Origin: a virus
DNA: 38,203 nucleotides
Virus record (IMG/VR): IMGVR_UViG_3300017968_000022
Coordinates: 1-38,203 of that record
Direction: 5' to 3' (one strand)
Shown in pieces: positions 519 to 37,138 of this stretch. The translations under genes and the position numbers were made by a program. Under the pieces are notes generated by a model, which was given only the letters and a program-made list of their open reading frames with translations, did not search any database and was not told the DNA's origin. Within the stretch, counting starts at the first letter, position 1; each line of letters starts with the position of its first letter.

Positions 519-3473
519 TTAACCAGCTAAGTCCTCACCTGTGTTTTTGATACGTACCGGAATATAGATAAACTCAATTGCTTTTACTGGTTGTATAGCA
601 ATGTCTATATACAATTCGTTTCTATCAATTCTAGCAGGTGTGTTGTTTGAATCATCACAAACAACCAAGAAGTCGTACAGTGCTCTCTGAGACACTAAAC
701 CAGACATAAATCTGTTAAATGTGTCAGTGACCTGTCTTCTTGTTGTTTCGTCATTTGGTTCAAACAAGAACGGTTTTGCTAGTAGATCCAATTGGTATCT
801 TAGATACACAACTAATCTTGATACATTTACTCTGTCCATTGCTGTTGCAGTTGGTGAAAGTGTTTTTTGACCAAATACTACCAAGCCTCTGTTTGGAATA
901 AATGCAATTGGGTTGATTTTGTTTGCGTACAGTGTGTCTCTTTGACCTTCAGACAGTGTTACTGGCTGATATTCTTCTTCAGAGTTAATGAAACCTACTG
1001 AAGTTGAATTGTCAACTAAACCTCTTGTATAACCTGCCGGTGCAAACCATGGAAATGCAACTGAGTCATTGTAAGCCAATGTTCTTAGAGCAATGTGTGA
1101 AGGTGGTACTACCACTTCATTACCGTCTAAGTTAGTTGCAAAGCCTGATGGATAATACACAGCCGCATATGGTGATGCTGTAATCAAACCATCTTCACCG
1201 TTTGAAGCGGCATTGTTGGCATTAGTTGCCCAGTTTTGAACTGACGTTCCATCTGGTGCTAATCTAAAAGGTGTGTCAGCAACAACAAATGCTGTTTGCT
1301 TTCTATCTGTACTTAAACTTACTAGTTCGTCAAGCAGTTCAGGATAACCTGGTGCTGACAGCAAGTTAAAGAATCTAGATTCTGCTCTGATATCATCATT
1401 GTCAACTAGTGCTGATTGCATTGCTGAAACAACAACTCTTCTCTGAGCGGCTCTGCCCATGTAAGGTGAACCATCTTCTTTTAGACCTGATTCTGTTACC
1501 CAAATGTCTCCGTTGTTTGTACCATCAAATGTGTAGTTGGTTACAAACTTTTTCACATTGTAACCTGAAAGTCTTGTGTTAAACAACAAGATGTTTTCTG
1601 GATACACTGCTGGATCTGGAGCGTCTGAATGGAAGTTGCTGTAAGCTGAACCCCAGTCTTGTGCATCTTCATCTGCACCTGCTGGGTTACCTACTGCATC
1701 TGCAAACACAACACCATCTGCTGTGCTTTGATCAGTGTTGTCTAATAAGTTCCATTCTGAGTCACTGTTGTTCCATTTGTAGATTTTTGGATAAACATCT
1801 AATTCATTTGAATCAATCCAAAGATCGCCATCTTCTAGTGCAGTACCATCTGATTGTGCAGTTGGCTCTTCAGATACAATCTGTAGATCTTTAATACCGC
1901 CTGACACAACTGAGTTAGCATCAAACCTGTCTTTTGAGTTTGCGTATGCTAACCATTTCATAGTACCACCATCATTAGTAGCAATATAGATATCAGCATC
2001 TTGACTTGAGCTGTACCAAAGTGTGCCATTTACTGGATCTTTAGTAGGTGCTGTTGCTGATGCTTCATATGAAAGATCGCTCCATAATGATTTGTGATAG
2101 TATGCTGTTGAACCTGTTGATTTGTTATCAGTAAATCCTAAGTCAGAAGTAGTTACACCTGAACCGTCTTGAATGTAAATTTCTTTACCGCCAGTTCTTG
2201 TGATTTTTAAATACTGTCTTGTTGCTGATCTATAATCAATAGATGCTGTGATACCTGCGGCCGCATGTGTCTGGCCGGCACCAAATTCACTGTTAATTGC
2301 TGTAACAATGTTTTCAAGATTTGATGATGAAAGCGTAATTGCCTGACCATTAAGTTTGAAAGTACCTGTTAAACTTGCGGCATGTAGTGATGATGCATCA
2401 CCAGTAGCCACAGTTGAAGTACCAGCTCCTCTGATTTTCAAACTATATTGAATTTCAGGAGTTGTTTCACGTTGTGTTTTTGAATATGATGTAGCTTCAA
2501 TTGTTGCTGATGCTGATACAAAGTTATTGGCAATATAATTTGCATAATCTTCGTCGCCATCATCATCGAACTGTACATAAACATCATTTTGTGTTAATGC
2601 GGCGCCTTCAACTGCTGTTGCGGCATCATCGTTAACATACATATTTGATGTTTTAGTTTCCCATGCACCTGTTGATGAGTTGTAAACTTTAACTACAATA
2701 CTAGCACCTTGACCTGCTGGTGTAGACTTTAACCAGATGTCATTGTCAGCCACTGTTGGTGCTGTACCTGTACCTGGCTGAATGTAAACATTAGCATTTG
2801 ATTTTGCTGTTGACCATGAGTCTGAACCTACTGCGTCCCATGTTGATGATGCTGTTTTTTCATACACAATAACTGGATCAACTGAAGTAACTGCAACAAA
2901 ATCTCCTGTTGCACCATATGTTGCTTTAGGTTTGTTGTTGGTTCCTACGTTACTACTTGCGGCAGAACTTGGTGTGTCTGCTAATACTGTTGGTGTTATT
3001 TTATCCCAAGTGCCTGCTGATGCATTACCTTGAAATAGACCAAAGTCTGTATTTTGTACATCTAACCAATATGTTCCGTTGTTTGGTGTTAGTTGTGGAG
3101 CTGTTGATGAAGCTTCTAGTTGATCTAAATCAACATCTGCTCTTACAACATATGCTCTGTTTGAAATTCCTAAATATGAATAAGTTGATAGCAAACCGTA
3201 TTCATTTCTCTCGTCGCCATGTATCTGTGTACCTGCTACTGATTTAAATGAAGGTTCGCCAAAAGTTGTAACCAGTTCACGTTGTGATGTTACCAAAAAT
3301 GGTTTTCCAGCGTTTGCAGAAGTTGTACCTACTGCTACTGCGTCAGTGCTTGGATCTGTTTTGTCTTGTGCTGTTGCAACAACTACAAGAGGAACAGTGC
3401 CTTGACCGGCTGGAGCATACATTGATTCATCAGTTACGCTAACTGATACACCTGGTGATGTTAGTGTTGGCAT
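519..3473 (-). CDS. gp18: Tail sheath protein, gp18-like, with long insertion
   Basis: Contractile tail sheath subunit. The N-terminus (MPTLTSPGVSVSVTDES, residues 1-125) and the C-terminal third (about 610-984, with NRFMSGLVSQRALYDFLVVC and KAIEFIYIPVRIKNTG near the end) match conserved sheath ends. At 984 residues it is much longer than T4 gp18 (659). The extra length lies at about 126-600. That stretch holds repeated units that start with (G/N)(T/D)(L/I/Y)W and end 20-24 residues later in another W (W136/W156, W247/W271, W486/W507, W552/W574). It also holds a stretch at about 370-450 resembling flagellin hook IN motifs (KLNGQAITL, IVTAINS, GITASID). The start is supported by an AGGGAG site and a perfect late promoter upstream. 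The insertion probably faces outward, by analogy with variable sheath domains. Confidence 0.92.
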   Translation of the reverse strand: MPTLTSPGVSVSVTDESMYAPAGQGTVPLVVVATAQDKTDPSTDAVAVGTTSANAGKPFLVTSQRELVTTFGEPSFKSVAGTQIHGDERNEYGLLSTYSYLGISNRAYVVRADVDLDQLEASSTAPQLTPNNGTYWLDVQNTDFGLFQGNASAGTWDKITPTVLADTPSSAASSNVGTNNKPKATYGATGDFVAVTSVDPVIVYEKTASSTWDAVGSDSWSTAKSNANVYIQPGTGTAPTVADNDIWLKSTPAGQGASIVVKVYNSSTGAWETKTSNMYVNDDAATAVEGAALTQNDVYVQFDDDGDEDYANYIANNFVSASATIEATSYSKTQRETTPEIQYSLKIRGAGTSTVATGDASSLHAASLTGTFKLNGQAITLSSSNLENIVTAINSEFGAGQTHAAAGITASIDYRSATRQYLKITRTGGKEIYIQDGSGVTTSDLGFTDNKSTGSTAYYHKSLWSDLSYEASATAPTKDPVNGTLWYSSSQDADIYIATNDGGTMKWLAYANSKDRFDANSVVSGGIKDLQIVSEEPTAQSDGTALEDGDLWIDSNELDVYPKIYKWNNSDSEWNLLDNTDQSTADGVVFADAVGNPAGADEDAQDWGSAYSNFHSDAPDPAVYPENILLFNTRLSGYNVKKFVTNYTFDGTNNGDIWVTESGLKEDGSPYMGRAAQRRVVVSAMQSALVDNDDIRAESRFFNLLSAPGYPELLDELVSLSTDRKQTAFVVADTPFRLAPDGTSVQNWATNANNAASNGEDGLITASPYAAVYYPSGFATNLDGNEVVVPPSHIALRTLAYNDSVAFPWFAPAGYTRGLVDNSTSVGFINSEEEYQPVTLSEGQRDTLYANKINPIAFIPNRGLVVFGQKTLSPTATAMDRVNVSRLVVYLRYQLDLLAKPFLFEPNDETTRRQVTDTFNRFMSGLVSQRALYDFLVVCDDSNNTPARIDRNELYIDIAIQPVKAIEFIYIPVRIKNTGEDLAG

Positions 3474-4634: not shown

Positions 4635-5381
4635 TTATCCAATAACCCAAGTTAGTGGATCTTCACCGGTGCCGTATGTGTCAATTTCACGCTCTAGCTT
4701 TTCAATGGCTGTTTGTGCTTCTGCTTTTAAATCTGCACCATTTAAGCTCACACTGCCTTGAGCACCAGGTAAACTGGAGTATTTGGATCTTGCTTCACCT
4801 AGCATCATTTTACATTGTGCAAGTGCATATTCTCTTATCCAAGGTCTACTGTATCTCTGTGTTATAAGTGTATCAACTGGTTTTTCCATGTATACTTGCA
4901 ATAACACATTTTCTTCAGCTCTTGGTCTACGCATTAAAAGTAATTTGTTTTTTTCTGTGACATATTTGAAATTAAGATAACCACCAAACAATCTTCTTAC
5001 TACTTCTTGATATTGAGAAAAAGCGTCCCATGTCAGCAGTCCACCAATTCTACCACCTTGTAAGAAATATAAATTAGTGTATGCCATTTCAAAAGGATCT
5101 AGATCAACTCCACTAGTTGAACCTGCAACAGATCTTCTAAATATTTCTCTGACTTCTATTACTTCTTCTGCCAGTGTATATTCGTTAACATCTGCTTGAA
5201 GTGTTAAAAAAATATATGCTTCTTCTGTGCTGTTTGAACTGCGTTGTCTAAATCTATCTACTGCTAGATCAATTGCTTGTTCATAGTGTTTGGGATCAAG
5301 TTCAACGTCAACCATACCATCACCTAGGATAGTACGTATATCGTCAATAAGTTCTTGTCTTTTAGATTGCTGTTTTGCCAT
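4635..5381 (-). CDS. gp13: Neck protein, gp13-like (head completion)
   Basis: Head-completion protein that with gp14 seals the portal and forms the neck (T4 role). The 248-residue protein opens with a helical MAKQQSKRQELIDDIRTILG and contains the segment QRSSNSTEEAYIFLTLQ, the strand-rich EYTLAEEVIEVREIFRRS, and a C-terminal helix ALAQCKMMLGEARSKYS. This pattern is familiar from gp13 of marine T4-like phages. It is divergent from gp14, its usual downstream partner; in most relatives both genes run the same way. There is no ribosome binding site; a late-type TAAATA ends 8 nt before the ATG. Confidence 0.82.
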   Translation of the reverse strand: MAKQQSKRQELIDDIRTILGDGMVDVELDPKHYEQAIDLAVDRFRQRSSNSTEEAYIFLTLQADVNEYTLAEEVIEVREIFRRSVAGSTSGVDLDPFEMAYTNLYFLQGGRIGGLLTWDAFSQYQEVVRRLFGGYLNFKYVTEKNKLLLMRRPRAEENVLLQVYMEKPVDTLITQRYSRPWIREYALAQCKMMLGEARSKYSSLPGAQGSVSLNGADLKAEAQTAIEKLEREIDTYGTGEDPLTWVIG

Positions 5382-14258: not shown

Positions 14259-14891
14259 TTACTTCTTGTTTAGCTCATGTATTAACTTAGTAATTTCGCT
14301 AGCCAAAAACTTCTGTGCTCTAGCATCATGCAAACTAGCATGTGCCAAGCCGTGTAATTTTTGACCACCGGTCATGTTCCATAAGCCTTCGTATATGGCT
14401 TTGGGATAGGCGTCTGGAGCAGAGGGTTGTGCAACGATGTCCACAGTGATGATTTCAAAGTCTTGAACTTCACCGCTTTCACTTACGTTACCAGAACCTC
14501 TGGAACTAACTCCTAATTTTGCACCACTTTCGAGTAAAGTTGTAACAATCTTACCCATTGGTGTAGGCATTATTTTTAGTTTTCCAATACCATTTGGACC
14601 ATCCATCCAAATTTCTTCAATCATGTGTGAAACTCTATCTAGATTAACTGTTAAGTTTTCTGGATGATCTGCTTCACCTAAAACACTAAAACCACCATCA
14701 AGTCTTTCTTTGATGTTGCTTACTGCTTTAGAAATTTCTGAAACCGGATAAACTCGTTGGTTTTGGTTTTTTACACCACCTTGAATAAACACACCTTTCA
14801 TTTTAAGGTGCTTGTTATCGTCTTTACCTTCGTGTAAAACTTCGATCTTTGCTTGATCGAATGTTAAACTTTCTGTTAATGGACGAATCAT
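14259..14891 (-). CDS. gp21: Prohead maturation protease, gp21-like
   Basis: Serine protease that cleaves scaffold and capsid proteins at (L/I)xE sites. I choose the ATG at 14891 (MIRPLTESLTFDQ), giving 210 residues against 212 in T4. The longer frame from 14954 would overlap the gp67-like gene, and this start leaves a 19-nt gap. Catalytic elements are visible: GEADHPENLTVNLDRVSHMI with H76, and KLGVSSRGSG with the nucleophile S129 or S130, followed by PSAPDAYPKAI. The same order of motifs is found in T4 (GELNHP, GVSSRG, PSAPDAW). It is third from the end of the gp67-gp21-gp22-gp23 operon. Confidence 0.92.
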   Translation of the reverse strand: MIRPLTESLTFDQAKIEVLHEGKDDNKHLKMKGVFIQGGVKNQNQRVYPVSEISKAVSNIKERLDGGFSVLGEADHPENLTVNLDRVSHMIEEIWMDGPNGIGKLKIMPTPMGKIVTTLLESGAKLGVSSRGSGNVSESGEVQDFEIITVDIVAQPSAPDAYPKAIYEGLWNMTGGQKLHGLAHASLHDARAQKFLASEITKLIHELNKK

Positions 14892-14910
14892 TCTAGGTTT
14901 GCCTTTCCTA

Positions 14911-15741
14911 TTACTTGCCTGTAATTGTTGACTTAGCTGATGCGTCTGCACCATCTTTTGAGTCAGCTGTTACTTTTGACATGTTTGGCTCAGTTGTTGA
15001 ACCCATGTCTTGTGGCTTAGGTGCTGAACCGCCTTTTTCTTCACCACCTTGTGCAATGTTACCAGCGTTGCCGCCCATATCATTTTTTGATGCTACTGGT
15101 GATTTAGTTGCGTCTGAACCATCTTTGTGATCAACTTTAACCGGCTTTAGTTCTGCTTCTTCAAGATCCTGTACAGTTTCTTCTGCAGACTCTTCTGCTG
15201 GCATCATTGATTCTTCATCATCTGACATTTCGTCTTCTGATTCTTCATCGCCGGCTTCTTCTTTACCGTTCATGATATCATCAAATTTGGCTTTTAGCTC
15301 TTCTAAGGCATTTTCTAAATCGTCTACTCTGTCTTCAACTTCTTCGTCGCCTTCAGCGTCTTTGTCTTCGTCGCCTTCGTGCTCGTCTTCGTTTGTTTCT
15401 TCGTAGTCAATTTCTTCAGCGTCTTCCTCGGCTTTTTGCTTTAGCTCATCTTTTAATTCAGCTTCTGCATCGCCTTCGGCACCTACTTGTTCTTCAACTG
15501 CTTCTTCTTCAGATTCCTCTGATTCTTCAACAGCATCTTCATCGGTAGTTTCTGCTTCTTCTACAGTGTCTTCTTCTGTAGTTTCTGCTTCTTCAACCGT
15601 GTCTTGTGAATTAACAAGCTCTTCATGAATAGTTCTAGCTTTTTCTACGATCACATCATGCAGTAGTGACTCTGCTTGATCCTGTTCACCGTTTACTAGA
15701 TACTCGAGAACTTGTTCTAATTTCGAACTCATTTCTGACAT
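14911..15741 (-). CDS. gp67: Prohead core protein, expanded gp67-like
   Basis: Head core component by position (between portal side and gp21) and by its N-terminus. The 276-residue protein starts with a short helical segment (LVNGEQDQAESLLHDVIVEK) comparable to the N-terminal helix of T4 gp67 (80 residues), then becomes extremely acidic. Residues 47-75 are a tandem repeat of (D)TVEEAETT(E/D)E. A further Glu/Asp block runs to about 195, and a neutral Gly/Ser/Lys tail ends in KSTITGK. The family is normally cleaved by gp21. A TAAGGAG site precedes the ATG. It opens the head operon. The large acidic expansion is the odd part. Confidence 0.7.
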   Translation of the reverse strand: MSEMSSKLEQVLEYLVNGEQDQAESLLHDVIVEKARTIHEELVNSQDTVEEAETTEEDTVEEAETTDEDAVEESEESEEEAVEEQVGAEGDAEAELKDELKQKAEEDAEEIDYEETNEDEHEGDEDKDAEGDEEVEDRVDDLENALEELKAKFDDIMNGKEEAGDEESEDEMSDDEESMMPAEESAEETVQDLEEAELKPVKVDHKDGSDATKSPVASKNDMGGNAGNIAQGGEEKGGSAPKPQDMGSTTEPNMSKVTADSKDGADASAKSTITGK

Positions 15742-16124: not shown

Positions 16125-16331
16125 ATGTCTTACGAATACATCACAGTCAAAGAACTTTTTGAGAGTGAACTTTCAGCAGTGAACAATTATATTGTGTTGT
16201 TAGAAAATCAAGATACATTAGATGAAGAACAACAAAAACAACTTGAAAAATTAAAAGTGGTTGCTGAATACCTTATTGACCGATTAGATGAAAAAATTTC
16301 TATAGGAACTGTATCAGATACTATGCACTAG
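16125..16331 (+). CDS. Small acidic hypothetical protein
   Basis: A 68-residue protein (MSYEYITVKELFESELSAVN ... LDEEQQKQLEKLKVVAEYLI) predicted to form two or three helices, one probably coiled-coil. I recognise no family. It is transcribed from the plus half of the palindromic promoter, against its neighbours, and its end overlaps the end of the portal gene by 11 nt. An independent late promoter with good coding character argues for a real small gene. It could be a late regulator or minor structural protein, but nothing in the sequence decides. Confidence 0.65.
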   Translation: MSYEYITVKELFESELSAVNNYIVLLENQDTLDEEQQKQLEKLKVVAEYLIDRLDEKISIGTVSDTMH

Positions 16332-18066
16332 TATCGGTATCGCCTGCATCAGCATCTTGCTGAGCAGTATTTCCTAATGGAGATTCTGTGCCTTCTGTGT
16401 CTTCAGGTGCAGGAACATCACTGCCGCCGCCTAATGCAGAACTTGACATTGGAGCTCCACCAACTGAACCTAATCCTTCAGGATCTTCCATTCCTCCAGG
16501 CATTGTGGTTTTGTTTTCTTCAGCCCATAGTCTTTGATTTTCATAGATTTCATCTTCTGAAAGATTTAAGAAACGCTTCATTGCAAAACGTTTACTGATA
16601 TAAGGTGTTTGGTTGATTTGATTAAAGATGTTTACTTGCTGTGTGTCTAATTCAATCTGTCTATATTTGCCAAAGTTTTGCGGTGCATTAAACTGTAGTT
16701 CAAACATGCCAGAATCAATTTCTATACCTCTGTTTTTTAAGAACATTTTGAATTCTCTGTCAACACTAGGCTGTATAAAATTCTGTATTCTTTGACAGAA
16801 TTTTGTAAATCTAAATTCTTGAATGTATGCAGTACCAACTCTGCCATCTGTGAAAGCAGTCTGTGGATCATTTGGTGAACTTGGCATATACGCACTAGGT
16901 ATTCTAAGACCTTTCATTAATTTGTCATTGAAATATCTTAAATCGTCAATTTCGCCTAGATTAGAACCGCCTGGTAATGTTTCAACTTTTGAACCTCTGC
17001 CTTCAGCCGTCTGTGCAAAGAAATAATCTTCTATCATTGACAACGGATTATATGTGGAATCTGTTATGTTAGCACCACCACCTGTTCTGTTAGGAATTCT
17101 TCTTTGATGAATTTCATTTTTGACTCGTTCAATAAAGCCCATAGCTTTTGATGTTGGCATGTTGCCTACATCTATGTAGAATACTCTACGCTCTGGTGCT
17201 CTTTGCACACGATAGATAATGATTGCATCTTCTAACAGTTCTTTTTGTTTGTAGGTTTTGAAAATAGGTTCTAACAAACTAACTCCAAAAGGCCAGTATC
17301 TATCCATGCCTTCTGTTAAGCTCAAATGTACCACATGAGATGCATCAATTGGATACACAGTGGCATCACGTTGAAATCTTCCGCCACCTAAACCTCCAGT
17401 ACCGCTGTATGGTTGTGATGATCTGTTGCTCATGCCACCTGACATAGGGTGTGCCATTGTGCCAGCATAGCCGCCGCCAGTTGGTGATACAAAATTCTGT
17501 GAATATGAATCTGATGTGATGTTTAGACTTTTTACATTGAGATCTAAATTTTTAATAAAATATGCTTCAGGCTTTTTGCCTTTGCCTTCATTGACCACAA
17601 TACGTTCAACATTGCCTGGATCAACCCAATACCATTTGTATGTTTTAGGATCTCTGACAAATATTTGATCTCCATACTTGATGGTGTTTCTTACCATTTT
17701 GAAACAACGTTTTTGCCATTGATTGATTTTGTTCCATTGCATCAATGCATTTTGTAAAAGTGCAGTTTCTGTGTCTGTTGGTTCTTCTTTGTACTGAATA
17801 TGAAATGGTGAACCTGTTTTTTCATCTGACTGAGAACTAAATTCTGCAATAGTGTCTAGTGCAGAGTTAATTTCTGTATCTAAGTCCATCATATCATATT
17901 GATAATATCTTTCACGTCTGTTTGGTTGGCCAGCATATACTTCTGGTAGCCACGTGTTGTATTTTGAATGCTGAGTACTGCCGGTATAAGATGATGATGT
18001 TGATCCCACCGGTGAGTTTGTACCAGACTCTGTGTTGTATTCTTTAAAGTATTTTCGCCAGCTCAT
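16321..18066 (-). CDS. gp20: Portal vertex protein, gp20-like
   Basis: Forms the dodecameric portal through which DNA enters the head. The 581-residue protein shows gp20 landmarks: YYQYDMMDLDTEINSALD (residues 54-71), MRNT-like KMVRNTIKYGDQIFV, WYWVDPGNVERI, VVHLSLTEGMDRYWPFGVS, YRVQRAPERRVFYIDVGNMP, and KVETLPGGSNLGEIDDL followed by the KLMKGLRIPSAYMP helix. T4 gp20 has 524 residues. An Asp/Ser/Gly-rich C-terminal tail is disordered. There is no ribosome binding site: the ATG is exactly 5 nt after an AATAAATA late element, predicting a leaderless mRNA. Confidence 0.95.
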   Translation of the reverse strand: MSWRKYFKEYNTESGTNSPVGSTSSSYTGSTQHSKYNTWLPEVYAGQPNRRERYYQYDMMDLDTEINSALDTIAEFSSQSDEKTGSPFHIQYKEEPTDTETALLQNALMQWNKINQWQKRCFKMVRNTIKYGDQIFVRDPKTYKWYWVDPGNVERIVVNEGKGKKPEAYFIKNLDLNVKSLNITSDSYSQNFVSPTGGGYAGTMAHPMSGGMSNRSSQPYSGTGGLGGGRFQRDATVYPIDASHVVHLSLTEGMDRYWPFGVSLLEPIFKTYKQKELLEDAIIIYRVQRAPERRVFYIDVGNMPTSKAMGFIERVKNEIHQRRIPNRTGGGANITDSTYNPLSMIEDYFFAQTAEGRGSKVETLPGGSNLGEIDDLRYFNDKLMKGLRIPSAYMPSSPNDPQTAFTDGRVGTAYIQEFRFTKFCQRIQNFIQPSVDREFKMFLKNRGIEIDSGMFELQFNAPQNFGKYRQIELDTQQVNIFNQINQTPYISKRFAMKRFLNLSEDEIYENQRLWAEENKTTMPGGMEDPEGLGSVGGAPMSSSALGGGSDVPAPEDTEGTESPLGNTAQQDADAGDTDTSA

Positions 18067-18114: not shown

Positions 18115-21100
18115 TTATGGATGATCTGCACCACTTGCCACTACCCAATTTTCAAAATTCTGTTTTCCTTTTTTGGTTTCACCCAATTGTTCTGCCTGCA
18201 TTCTGGCTATATTATCCAAAATATCAGATGCTTTTTTGGTGTTTTCAGCAATTATTTCTTCTGTGGTTTTTTCTCTTTTGGTGTAATCATCCGGATTGCC
18301 AAACATAGGCATAATTTTGATATTGCTGTCTGGTTTAATTGCGCCATCAGTTTGCTGTGTTCCTGTGCCTGTACCTGTGTCTGCTTGTGTTAGACTACCT
18401 GATGCTGATGACTGATTGAAGTTGTATCCAAATCTTCCCATTTCTTCTGTGAGATACTGTCGCAACTGTTCGTTGGTAGCATCTGCTAGTGACACAATCT
18501 GATTACCATCTGGTCCAGTGAAAATTTTTCTAAAATTAGGATCAGATCTGAGTTTACCTAAATCAACTCCAGAAATATCAGTTAATTGCAATAATAGTTC
18601 TTTTTCTTTTTTCTTAAGTTCATCTAATTGTGCTTGATATATTCCAGGATCAATTTCACTCTGCGATTTTTTCAACACTCGCATATCGCCGGCTACTTTT
18701 TGTAAATTAGAATTTATTTCATCAGCTGATTCAAAATCTTCAGCAGAGTAGCCTAACGGAGTAACCGAAGCTACACCTCGCATTATACCAGCACCAATAC
18801 CACGTTCTAATATATCTCCTAGTCCGTTGAATATTCCTCCAAATGCTCTAGTTAATGCTTCCCAAAATGTCATTCTACCAGAAAACAAATCAGCAAAGTA
18901 ATTTGTGATTCCAGTAAAGGCTTCGTTTATCATTTGAAACCCTGGCCCTTTAAGCCAATCAGCTACACTTTCAACAGCACCTGTAAATTTGTCAACTAAA
19001 AATTGAAAACCGTTTACTGTGTCTTCGTTTAAAAATGCTAACGCTACTTTGGTAAACGCTGTTCTAATTTTTGCTAGAGCTAGTGCCATTTGATTTTGTG
19101 CTCGGCCTAAAGCACCTGCGTCAATCTCGCTCATGGTTTTTACCATTTCAGCAAATGTGTTATCATCAACTGTTTCATTTAAGTTTGCCAGTCTAATCAC
19201 AAACTTGGCCATTGGATCGCCACTGATTTCTAAAGCTCTTAAAAACTGTCTTGAGTTAGCATCAACTGTTCCAATGGTTTCTCTAAAATCATCTAATGCC
19301 CCTACAACATTACCTCCACGTCCGGCTTCGTATGATAAATTCTGTAAACTCTGTAATAGACCTGGAGACACTCTGGCCAAATCTTGACCAAACTGTGTAA
19401 ACTGTAAACCACCTCTACCTATACCTTCAGAAAGTGCTGTTGTTAATTCTTGTCCTAGATCAGGTCCAAATGCGGCCAAGCCGGCAAATGCAGTCTGACT
19501 TGATGCTAATGCACTCTGTCTTAGGTCTGATGGCAACATCTGTAATGCATTTGTAAATGATTCAATAGCACTGGCTTGTAAAACCATCTGTCTAATCACA
19601 TCATTTGATGTATTGGTCAATCTAGTAAATGCCTGTGTGGTTCTTAAAACTCTAACTGTGTTGTCACTAATCTGTTTGTTATTGCCTTCAAGATCAAAAC
19701 CTAAAATTCGCATTGCTTCTGCTGTTTCAACAGTGGCTTGCGACAGTTCTTGGTTACTTAAACCTAAATAGCCTTGTTCTCTTAATAGCCCTTGTGTGTT
19801 TTGAATTGCATCTGTGACAGTTTTTGTTCCATACTCGCCCATTACTGTTGCAAACTCTCCACTTAATTCTATAAACTGATCTAAACTTAAACTGGCGTCT
19901 GCGGCTCTGGCGGCAAATGTGGCAATGCCATCAGCTACGCCGGCATTTGGTCCTGTGGCATCTGCTATTTCGTTAAAGCCTCTTCTAAAGATAGTATTCT
20001 CTAATCGGCCTAATCTCATTAAAAATTTAAATGCGGCTTTGAGTCCTGAAATTAAACCGGCAATGGCCGCTGTTGCTGGATTAAGTAATCTACCAAATTT
20101 TGCAAAGCCACCTATTACACCACCAAGTACTCCTCCTTTGCCACCTAATGTATCCATTAGTTTGCCAATCATTCCTTTGTTGGCTTTGGTATTACTGTCT
20201 AATGCTTGTTTTACTGCTTTTAATTCTTCTTTATTATTATCATTTGATGCTTGTTGAGGTTTAGATTCTTTTTCTGTGATACCAGCAGTTTTTTCGGTTG
20301 CAACAGCAATTCTTTCTAGCATTTGAATTATTTGTGTGTTTTCAAAACCAGATACTGCACCAGTTGGTGTTTGGGGTGTGCCGGATGATTCATCATCTTG
20401 TTTTTGAGTTAGCGGTTGATTAGATGACTGTTGATTAATTGACTGTTGTAATTTAGATGCTAGATCGTCAAATGAACTTCCAATAGCTTCTGCAAAAACC
20501 GAACCAATCTTTTCGGGTGTTTGTGCATTTATATTATTGATTAAACTTTTATTGTCCTGAACCAGTTGATCAATTGCTGACTTGTATGCTTCACTAGTAG
20601 TATCAACTGTGCTTAAAAAACTTTTATTGTCTTGGACTAACTGATCAATTGCTGACTTGTAAGTTTCGCCTGTAGAATCAACTGTGCTTAAAAAACTCTT
20701 GTTGTCTTGAACCAGTTGATCAATTGCTGACTTGTACGCTTCGCCTGTAGAATCAACTGTGTTTAAAAAATTTTTATTATCAGAAATAAGTTGGGATATT
20801 GCTGTTTTTAAAACCGATGAGTCTGATTTGGCTTCACTGACTAGATCTTTATTCTGTGCAACTAAATTCTGTAACTCTTGTTCAATTGCAGTTGTGTCAA
20901 TTTCTACTTTAGTTTCTTTGTTTTTAGTAGCACTTGTTTTTGCTTCATTTTTAAAAAAATTCAATATAGATTCAAGTGTTTTGGCTTGAGTATCAAGTTT
21001 TTTAAATCCGGATTGATTACGAGATGCTAACTGATTAACAGCCTTAATCAATTCCTGAATACTGCGATCATACGCAAATTCTGGTATTGAATAATTTGTT

Positions 21101-21132
21101 CCGTCTATGTTTAAATCTACACGATCTGCCAT
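18115..21132 (-). CDS. Tail tape-measure protein candidate
   Basis: A 1005-residue protein with the build of a tape measure. Residues 1-330 are charged helix with a tandem 25-residue repeat ((S)AIDQLVQDNKSFLSTVDST, copies at 110-134, 135-159, 160-184, 185-208). A hydrophobic Gly/Ala-rich region follows at about 332-378 (GGVLGGVIGGFAKFGRLL, AAIAGLISGLKAAFKFL). A long helical centre contains TEM-type segments such as ARAADASLSLDQF and PGLLQSLQNLSYEAGRGG, then a hydrophobic stretch around 740-790 and a disordered Thr/Gly-rich tail. It may be the counterpart of T4 gp29 (590 residues), which I cannot otherwise find here. The divergent gp26-like gene with a frameshift supports the tape-measure reading. 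The upstream leader has no close ribosome binding site. Confidence 0.65.
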   Translation of the reverse strand: MADRVDLNIDGTNYSIPEFAYDRSIQELIKAVNQLASRNQSGFKKLDTQAKTLESILNFFKNEAKTSATKNKETKVEIDTTAIEQELQNLVAQNKDLVSEAKSDSSVLKTAISQLISDNKNFLNTVDSTGEAYKSAIDQLVQDNKSFLSTVDSTGETYKSAIDQLVQDNKSFLSTVDTTSEAYKSAIDQLVQDNKSLINNINAQTPEKIGSVFAEAIGSSFDDLASKLQQSINQQSSNQPLTQKQDDESSGTPQTPTGAVSGFENTQIIQMLERIAVATEKTAGITEKESKPQQASNDNNKEELKAVKQALDSNTKANKGMIGKLMDTLGGKGGVLGGVIGGFAKFGRLLNPATAAIAGLISGLKAAFKFLMRLGRLENTIFRRGFNEIADATGPNAGVADGIATFAARAADASLSLDQFIELSGEFATVMGEYGTKTVTDAIQNTQGLLREQGYLGLSNQELSQATVETAEAMRILGFDLEGNNKQISDNTVRVLRTTQAFTRLTNTSNDVIRQMVLQASAIESFTNALQMLPSDLRQSALASSQTAFAGLAAFGPDLGQELTTALSEGIGRGGLQFTQFGQDLARVSPGLLQSLQNLSYEAGRGGNVVGALDDFRETIGTVDANSRQFLRALEISGDPMAKFVIRLANLNETVDDNTFAEMVKTMSEIDAGALGRAQNQMALALAKIRTAFTKVALAFLNEDTVNGFQFLVDKFTGAVESVADWLKGPGFQMINEAFTGITNYFADLFSGRMTFWEALTRAFGGIFNGLGDILERGIGAGIMRGVASVTPLGYSAEDFESADEINSNLQKVAGDMRVLKKSQSEIDPGIYQAQLDELKKKEKELLLQLTDISGVDLGKLRSDPNFRKIFTGPDGNQIVSLADATNEQLRQYLTEEMGRFGYNFNQSSASGSLTQADTGTGTGTQQTDGAIKPDSNIKIMPMFGNPDDYTKREKTTEEIIAENTKKASDILDNIARMQAEQLGETKKGKQNFENWVVASGADHP
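20509..20805 (-). repeat. 75-bp in-frame tandem repeat in the tape-measure candidate
   Basis: Four consecutive 75-bp units encode 25 residues each (consensus SAIDQLVQDNKSFLSTVDST plus GEAYK). The two middle units are almost identical; the outer ones have diverged. A more degenerate unit may precede them (residues 80-109). In-frame repeat number would directly change protein length. Confidence 0.85.
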
Positions 21133-21244: not shown

Positions 21245-22081
21245 ATGTCAACAACTACACCGGGTAATCCGCTAAAAAAATATTATCGTACACCCAAACT
21301 GTATATCACATTGCCTTCTGGTGGCAAATTCAACCAAGTAGCCGACGAAGCCATGAACGGTGAACTTCCGGTGTATGCCATGACCAGTAGAGACGAACTC
21401 TTGTTGAGAAATCCAGATGCACTGTTAAACGGTGATGCTATAGTACAAGCAATCCAGAGCTGTGTGCCAGCAATCAAAGATCCAAAACAGTTGCCTGTTT
21501 GTGATATTGACTTGATTCTAATTGCAATCAGACAAGCCACATACGGAGAAATCATGGAAGCCAAATTGAAATCTCCACATTCAGGAAAAACTGACAGCTA
21601 TGATGTAAACCTCAGTGCCATTATTGATAACGTACAATCGTTACCTGATGAAACACATGTTACACTGAATAACAGTTGTACTGTTTATGTAAGACCGTTC
21701 AGTTACACAATTCAAACCAGACTAAATCTTTTGGCATTTGATCAAGCCAAAACAATTCGTGACGTTGGCGAAGTGTCTGAAAAATCAGCACAACAATTCA
21801 AAGCCATGTTTTTAAAACTAGCAAACACAAACATGGATGTGATTGCTGAATCTATTGTGAAAATCACAACACCCGAAGGTGACGAAATCACAGACTTGAA
21901 TATGATCAAAGAATTTTTAGAAAATCTAGAAAGTGTTGACAGCAAAAAAATTGACAAAAGAATCGATGAGCTAAACAAAGCTGTGGTCAACACCAAGCAA
22001 GAATTTGCCTGCACAGAGACTGGTAAAACGTTTGAAGCAGAAGTCAAATTGGATCCTGCTGATTTTTTCGTCAATTCTTAA
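21245..22081 (+). CDS. gp26: Baseplate hub gp26-like protein, 0-frame product (probable tail assembly chaperone)
   Basis: A 278-residue protein starting MSTTTPGNPLKKYYRTPKL, with AAGGAA 10 nt upstream (the TTG-type extension to 21221 is less likely). Landmarks are LYITLPSGGKF, VYAMTSRDELLLRNPDALLN (residues 51-70), SCVPAIKD, and DIDLILIAIRQATYG, then a C-terminal ACTETGKTFEAEVKLDPADFF. This layout matches proteins annotated as baseplate hub gp26 in marine T4-like phages. The last codons contain the slippery heptamer T-TTT-TTC. The gene is divergent from the tape-measure candidate, the usual partner of tail assembly chaperones, so I infer that it is one. Confidence 0.82.
   Translation: MSTTTPGNPLKKYYRTPKLYITLPSGGKFNQVADEAMNGELPVYAMTSRDELLLRNPDALLNGDAIVQAIQSCVPAIKDPKQLPVCDIDLILIAIRQATYGEIMEAKLKSPHSGKTDSYDVNLSAIIDNVQSLPDETHVTLNNSCTVYVRPFSYTIQTRLNLLAFDQAKTIRDVGEVSEKSAQQFKAMFLKLANTNMDVIAESIVKITTPEGDEITDLNMIKEFLENLESVDSKKIDKRIDELNKAVVNTKQEFACTETGKTFEAEVKLDPADFFVNS
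22063..22069 (+). other. Programmed -1 ribosomal frameshift site (T TTT TTC)
   Basis: In the gp26-like frame the codons read GAT TTT TTC, a canonical X-XXY-YYZ heptamer. Frame -1 has a TGA at 22060-22062 and is then open to 22297-22299, so a shift can only occur in the 19-nt window 22063-22081, where the heptamer lies. No convincing downstream pseudoknot was seen. Confidence 0.75.
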
Positions 22082-22299
22082 TCACATCCGAGCCGTCTGA
22101 CATTGTTACCTACTTTGGCGAACTAGCCAGCGAAACCAAAGCTATTCATAGAAGTGTAGCAGAAATTTGTTGGTACATGCGAGGCTCTATCACTTATGAA
22201 GAAGCCTGGAACCTTACCTACGAAGAAAAGAAGGTAATTGAAGAATTCCTCAAAGAAAATATTGAAAAGTTTAAAGGTTCAATGACTCCGGTTGTTTAA
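22063..22299 (+). CDS. C-terminal extension made by -1 frameshift from the gp26-like gene
   Basis: This frame codes for about 76 residues after the shift (RQFLITSEPSDIVTYFGEL ... SVAEICWYMRGSITYEEAWN ... ENIEKFKGSMTPVV). It has no ATG, GTG or TTG near its beginning; the only ATG is half-way along, at the Met of CWYMRG. The protein segment is well formed, with two helices and a conserved-looking CWYMRGSITYEEAW core, so it must be read by another route. A -1 shift at 22063-22069 would fuse it to residue 275 of the gp26-like protein, giving a 351-residue product, like the G/GT pairs of lambda-type tail chaperones. The end overlaps the stop of the convergent methyltransferase gene by 4 nt. Confidence 0.78.
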   Translation, partial: FFRQFLITSEPSDIVTYFGELASETKAIHRSVAEICWYMRGSITYEEAWNLTYEEKKVIEEFLKENIEKFKGSMTPVV

Positions 22300-36577: not shown

Positions 36578-37138
36578 CTATAATATATGATCTGCTATGC
36601 GAAGAGCAACCAATTGTTTTGCCGTAAAGTATTGATCACTTGGAGAATCCAATTTTTTCTTAACAGTTGACATGTTCCAGCCAGTGGCTTCTTTGAGAAT
36701 TTGAAAACATCTTTCTTCACAGTTGGCATTTTCTTGCATGGCACTTTTCATGTCATGCATTTTGGATTCTAATCGATCTGAATGTTGATGATTCATTATC
36801 CCGGTATTTTTTGCTATGTATCTCATACCCTGTTTGCCTGATGCAAAAATTAAAAATGCCGCACTCATGACAGCACCAACACCAATTGTGGAAATGTTAT
36901 GATAGCTGTGTTTCATCACATCTATAAGTGCAAATGAATGGTAAAGATCGCCGCCGTACGAATTAATATACAGTTTAAGTGTACGTTTTGGCTTTTTTTG
37001 CAGGTTAGCTGACAATATCCATTTGATAGCAACAGAAGTATTTTCCTCGTCAATGTCTCCATATAGATAGTGTATGTCGTTCTCTAACAATGACTTATCT
37101 ATCTGGTCTTCTGACGAAAATTGATCAAATTTTTTCAT
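36578..37138 (-). CDS. clpP: ClpP-like serine protease
   Basis: Self-compartmentalising protease homologue. The 186-residue protein (E. coli ClpP mature, 193) keeps the triad in expected places. S92 lies in GAVMSAAFLIFASG (canonical GQAASMGAFLL), H117 in GIMNHQHSD (canonical VMIHQP) and D168 in SPSDQYFTAKQ (canonical ERDRFLSA). The handle region is present and the C-terminus (LRIADHIL) matches the usual GLVDSIL end. The oxyanion-type INSYGGDLYHSFALID precedes it. No Clp ATPase is in the window, so it may use a host partner or act alone, for instance in head maturation. A perfect late promoter lies 39 nt before the ATG. Confidence 0.9.
   Translation of the reverse strand: MKKFDQFSSEDQIDKSLLENDIHYLYGDIDEENTSVAIKWILSANLQKKPKRTLKLYINSYGGDLYHSFALIDVMKHSYHNISTIGVGAVMSAAFLIFASGKQGMRYIAKNTGIMNHQHSDRLESKMHDMKSAMQENANCEERCFQILKEATGWNMSTVKKKLDSPSDQYFTAKQLVALRIADHIL

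Follow-up and report, generated by a model that had tools for sequence, protein, structure and literature searches.

A putative programmed -1 frameshift in the gp26-like gene of marine T4-like phages and its relation to T4 genes 26 and 51

How is a reading frame expressed that has no start codon at its beginning and directly follows a complete gene? The question is raised by the gp26-like locus of a 38,203-base IMG/VR viral contig from an uncultured marine, jumbo-like clade of T4-like phages (this whole stretch is called the window), in which the T4-like virion genes for portal, prohead protease, major head protein, sheath, gp53 and gp25 are also present. The gp26-like gene (21245-22081, plus strand) starts at an ATG with AAGGA upstream and encodes a short form of 278 amino acids, the putative equivalent of TAC-N, which stops at the TAA in positions 22079-22081 (plus strand). 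In profile searches the short form matched PF12322 (E 3.1e-18, 66.7 bits against a cut-off of 24.5) and phrog_150 (E 6.3e-22), and it is homologous to the gp26 and gp51 families of T4. The extension (22063-22299, plus strand; 78 codons, stop at 22297-22299), which would correspond to TAC-NC when joined to the short form, lies in the -1 frame, where no ATG, GTG or TTG gives an ORF of at least 60 amino acids and the first Met is residue 39. A TGA (22060-22062, plus strand) closes the -1 frame upstream, so the extension can be entered only within the overlap of the two frames, which measures 19 nt with the TAA included. Within this overlap, 9 nt 5' of the short-form stop, lies the slippery heptamer T TTT TTC (22063-22069, plus strand) in X XXY YYZ phase, with TTT TTC as the frame-0 codons. 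Reading through it in the -1 frame gives a long form of 351 amino acids, in which 76 residues (R-Q-F-L-I...) are added after Phe275 and the junction reads F-F-R-Q. The start-less frame, the 19-nt overlap, the in-phase heptamer, the 351-residue fusion and the junction after residue 275 had all been described in the first-pass annotation, and all were confirmed. As regards cysteines, CPxC and CxxC pairs with the look of a zinc ribbon occur in relatives around residues 111 and 256, and are mostly missing from the window protein (KSPHSGK, CTETGK).

Of the 31 ORFs in the window, the gp26-like one alone has both an in-phase heptamer within the overlap and a long -1 extension other than the next gene; this rarity, together with the recurrence of the arrangement in 182 of 183 relatives, rules out a chance occurrence. 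Homopolymers are prone to error, and in one relative (the cyanophage-like contig L097) the gene is continuous in frame at the site, as would be expected if sequencing or assembly had split a single gene; however, an independent, near-identical contig (L002) agrees with the window here, differing over 6,834 bases by 7 substitutions and by no gap, and the shift is common to the 182 relatives, finished isolate genomes included. An error is thus refuted for the window, and as a general explanation it can practically be dismissed.

The set of 183 relatives was made up of marine IMG/VR contigs, cyanophages, KVP40, Aeh1, and RaK2-like and other jumbo phages, and a canonical heptamer was found in phase at the homologous site in all except one (TTTTTTC in 168, TTTTTTT in 7 and AAATTTT in 7). 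The alignment of relatives that the first-pass annotation had called for therefore came out in its favour, the heptamer and the short overlap, and with them the -1 protein, being conserved far past close relatives. Among window-type IMG/VR loci, 74 of 81 had a T-type heptamer, and the other seven (L145, L171, L180, L181, L189, L190 and L206) had instead another canonical heptamer, A AAT TTT, likewise in phase but placed one codon further upstream; one slippery site seems to have been exchanged for another without loss of function. The cyanophage-type set, consisting of IMG/VR loci found with P-SSM2 gp26 together with P-SSM2, S-PM2, HTVC008M, KVP40, phiM12 and phiW-14, had an in-phase heptamer and a -1 extension in 85 of 86 cases. 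The closest isolated relatives are the 'baseplate hub' genes of RaK2-, PA5oct- and Atu_ph07-type jumbo phages. A tblastn search with the 351-residue fusion found 65 phage records, almost all jumbo-type or related (25 of them with one place covering at least 80% of the query), while the extension alone hit 15 records of jumbo phages, the best with an E of 6e-12. In the annotated relatives the in-phase T TTT TTC was present in 16 of 16 (as T TTT TTT in XacN1 and CM1), with the -1 frame running 58 to 75 amino acids beyond the short-form stop.

The sole exception among the 183 was L097 (positions 2465-3364 of a 236-kb contig), in which two bases are lost at the heptamer and the short and long parts are fused in frame. 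No second copy of the gene was found in this contig; the fusion may be an error of sequencing, or else the phage makes the long form only. Outside this set, an intact frame without the heptamer, the observation that the first-pass annotation had named as a refutation, was encountered in one clade, the Ackermannviridae. In Salmonella phage Vi01 (L239) and 18 further contigs (L322-L339), a clear homologue of the extension (...DLLSYFVMCDELKxxGYSIFEI...) occupies the -1 frame, and the sequence at the site, ATT TTC ATY TAA, does not vary and includes no canonical heptamer. These phages seem to enter the -1 frame by another route, which may be a slip of a single tRNA on T TTC or a mechanism that depends on the stop codon. 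The Bacillus phage SP-15 has a gp26-like short gene and no -1 extension.

Selection was evident both on the site and on the extension. The first Phe codon was TTT in 111 of 111 dereplicated T-type sequences, compared with 71% of the Phe codons elsewhere in the same genes (probabilities for this invariance ignore shared ancestry and are indicative only). The codon that runs into the T TTT TTY heptamer was AAT, AGT, GAT, TCT, GCT, CAT, GGT, CGT or TAT, so that its final T is invariant while the amino acid varies. For the extension, pN/pS in the -1 frame was 0.24 for the window type and 0.16 for the cyanophage type, and it exceeded 1 in both other frames; judged by these ratios, the extension evolves as a protein, with purifying selection in the -1 frame only. 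Stimulators of -1 frameshifting, such as an upstream Shine-Dalgarno-like element or a downstream structure, are common but not universal. In cyanophages (L051-L130), 73 of 79 loci had a Shine-Dalgarno-like GGAGG or GAGG 10 nt 5' of the heptamer, and the downstream hairpin was strong in two of the four loci folded (z -3.5 to -5). The element, with the hairpin in some loci, resembles a frameshift cassette of the dnaX type. Neither a Shine-Dalgarno-like element 10 nt upstream nor a stable hairpin was found in the window or its nearest relatives, the downstream fold of the window having z values of 0.4 to 0.7.

A different origin of the second product would be a separate small gene, translated from its own start or, at the stop of the short form, by termination-reinitiation. 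Most cyanophage loci have an ATG in the -1 frame a few bases past the short-form stop, a short downstream ORF is annotated in some records (Atu_ph07, Munch, GAP32 and Phosso), and Sullivan et al. 2010 (PMC3037559) took the cyanophage part as a gp51 of about 20% of full length. This ATG is, however, absent from some cyanophages and from HTVC008M, and in the window and nearly all window-type relatives the -1 frame has neither an ATG nor a GTG close to its start; reinitiation has no need of an invariant in-phase heptamer 5' of the stop; and in T4, RB49, 44RR and RB43 the extension is part of a long protein. A separate gene is accordingly very unlikely. For the window itself, a small gene with its own start was rejected, as no suitable start codon lies near the beginning of the -1 frame.

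The compared sequences establish the site, its conservation, the selection on the extension, and the homology to T4 gp26 (short form) and gp51 (long form), and it is highly probable that a programmed -1 frameshift yields a short and a long form of a tail assembly chaperone. Most ribosomes would terminate at 22079-22081 and release the 278-residue short form, while a fraction would shift back by one base at T TTT TTC, the tRNAs on TTT and TTC re-pairing with TTT and TTT, and would go on to produce the 351-residue long form, whose C-terminal extension is helical. We infer the slippage, its efficiency and the binding partners of each form. If lambda G/GT and P2 E/E+E' are taken as models, the short form may coat the tape measure protein, the rarer long form may use its extension to bring in tail tube subunits or partners in the hub, and neither form would stay in the virion.

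A candidate tape measure gene is found next to the gp26-like gene. Its product (18115-21132, minus strand; 1005 amino acids), the divergent neighbour, was picked out by its length, internal repeats, hydrophobic stretches and position, and from position and make-up it is presumed to be the tape measure protein. Beyond it lies the portal gene (gp20; 16321-18066, minus strand; PF07230, E 2.2e-106), and the order of portal, large structural gene and divergent gp26-like gene is common to RaK2, 121Q, GAP32 and others. Of the loci tested, all 65 of the window type and 14 of the 15 from jumbo phages have a long divergent ORF upstream. The candidate gene is divergent in the window, likewise in RaK2-type phages, and downstream in cyanophages, where the start of the next large gene falls 7 to 10 nt inside the end of the long form for the majority of the listed loci; hydrophobic, glycine-rich stretches suggest that this gene, too, may encode the tape measure protein. 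Family searches gave no tape-measure match for either the 1005-residue neighbour or the next large gene of the cyanophages. Two further features of the window concern its virion genes: the candidate tape measure gene contains tandem repeats of about 150 bp (20543-20778, minus strand) with a repeated AIDQLVQDNKSFLSTVDSTGE-like peptide, and a ClpP-like protease (36578-37138, minus strand; PF00574, E 2.9e-29) is encoded among the virion genes in addition to a separate prohead protease (14259-14954).

Whether the products act as chaperones or are built into the baseplate hub is a question of its own, as the family is named baseplate hub in databases, and genetic work cited in a review of the T4 tail (PMC3004832) favours gp26 in the hub. 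In the same review, however, both gp26 and gp51 are classed as hub assembly chaperones, and gp51 is said not to be part of the finished particle; short and long pairs made by a -1 frameshift are the hallmark of tail assembly chaperones (PMC5009743). The comparison of predicted folds with known chaperones, proposed in the first-pass annotation for the long form, gave a divided result. The model of the window short form (pLDDT 88.7, pTM 0.84) had no significant match in a Foldseek search of the PDB, and its alignment with the HK97 chaperone 2ob9 (Z 6.2, rmsd 5.6, 102 of 107 residues) was tied with those of unrelated chains. In the model of the long form from the natural fusion L097 (pLDDT 85.2, pTM 0.77) the extension is folded as helices, and here the best PDB match was 2ob9, the HK97 tail assembly chaperone (Z 7.7, rmsd 3.6, 84 of 107 residues), with 3fgx next (Z 7.6) and the following match at 4.1. 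The best BFVD matches of the short form were baseplate and T4-like hub assembly proteins. Apart from PF12322, the families listed in a Pfam search of the window protein and 44 relatives included no chaperone family, and were mostly weak zinc-ribbon matches. The conserved shift, the selection in the -1 frame, the membership in the T4 gp26/gp51 family and the best fold match of L097 support the earlier proposal that the gp26-like protein is a chaperone. The gene thus likely encodes a tail assembly chaperone and not a baseplate hub subunit, and a genuine frameshift gene with structural hub subunits as its products is improbable.

The relation to T4 itself follows from its genes 26 and 51. The two T4 products both match PF12322 and phrog_150 and are, by sequence, paralogues. 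The C-termini of gp26 (T4 ...GLKEFFELL, RB49 ...GLSSFLKIL, RB43 ...GLEAFLKVVG) all end just past the position of the slip site, while gp51 runs on into a homologue of the extension; gp26 (short) and gp51 (long) would thus be equivalents of the two frameshift products. The tail of gp51 matched the cyanophage -1 extension with E 9e-7 (T4) and 6.5e-11 (RB49), the best shuffled decoy reaching 0.17. The window-type extension is more weakly connected to the cyanophage type (1.6e-6 for HTVC008M and 0.001 for KVP40), and T4 gp51 was reached from it only through these. T4 differs in having two divergent genes and a gp26 end, GAG TTC TTT GAG, that is without the heptamer. In the two-gene phages T4, RB49, 44RR and RB43 the extension sits in frame inside the long protein, gp51, and these phages appear to divide between two genes what others would make by frameshifting; KVP40 and Aeh1, of the same family as T4, have a single gene with T TTT TTC. 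On the simplest reading, both products are needed and lineages differ in their route to them, frameshifting appearing to be the rule and the two genes of T4 the exception. It is about an even bet that the T TTT TTC frameshift is ancestral and prevailing in the whole T4-like supergroup, cyanophages and RaK2-type jumbo phages alike, with genes 26 and 51 of T4, which we infer to be the derived state, arising by duplication, and with the Ackermannviridae having replaced the two-tRNA slip by a different shift, perhaps one involving a single tRNA, at the invariant ATT TTC ATY TAA.

If so read, the annotation of a core gene is corrected in very many marine and jumbo phages, whose records lack the long product, list it apart as a hypothetical protein, or label it a truncated gp51. 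The same reading offers an explanation for the cyanophage gp51 of about 20% of the expected length, which would correspond to the -1 extension, and for the gp51 reported missing in Aeh1 (both from Sullivan et al. 2010, PMC3037559). A 2016 review (PMC5009743) describes G-T frameshifting as widely conserved in long-tailed phages 'except T4'; the sequences nevertheless provide a rationale for regarding genes 26 and 51 of T4 as coding for a single chaperone in a short and a long version. The IMG/VR set, moreover, constitutes a natural comparison of slippery sites, stimulators, in-frame fusion and the two-gene solution.

The general idea is already published for T4-like phages. Papers that cite Vladimirov, Gautam and Davidson 2022 (Virology 566:9-15) credit that study with finding which genes of T4-like phages encode the chaperones and with poly-T slippery sites in part of them; PMC12846349 cites the work for such sites in T4-like TAC-N genes, and PMC10885494, another citing paper, describes some T4-like phages as having a short gene and a fused long gene in place of frameshifting. 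Those chaperones, with their short and long (fused) forms, would belong to the same family as that of the window. Since both the chaperone and the slippery sites of T4-like phages were published in 2022, the window gene is an added example and not a new idea, although a clear member. Outside the T4-like phages, P2 E/E+E' likewise relies on a -1 shift at a U-rich heptamer, T TTT TTG, and is annotated with the frameshift. In P2 the chaperone gene is directly 5' of the tape measure gene, and gene T begins inside the end of E', as the next large gene of cyanophages begins inside the end of the long form. P2 gpE differs in its length of 91 amino acids; it showed no similarity to the family by sequence or profile comparison, and a scan of IMG/VR for gpE gave only near-identical sequences. 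Lambda G/GT and HK97 gp13 resemble the window in that two products overlap close to the gene for the tape measure, for which the window has a candidate, and HK97 also provides the 2ob9 fold match of the L097 model. The pattern of the lambda G/GT type, a short and a long product with a common N-terminal part, is present in the window at the level of sequence. The lambda slippery sequence is G GGA AAG, unlike the T TTT TTC of the window, and the window protein is longer than those of lambda and HK97, with an inserted part that is beta or zinc-ribbon-like. In the public records of Callisto (L003), Atu_ph07 (L005) and RaK2 (L012), the extension is missed or begun at an internal codon (Atu_ph07, 4942-5064), and the long form is absent. 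The nearest counterparts, the RaK2-, PA5oct- and Atu_ph07-type jumbo phages, have the same heptamer and -1 extension, and the RaK2 type has the same synteny as well; their genes are annotated as one hub gene accompanied by a hypothetical protein or by nothing.
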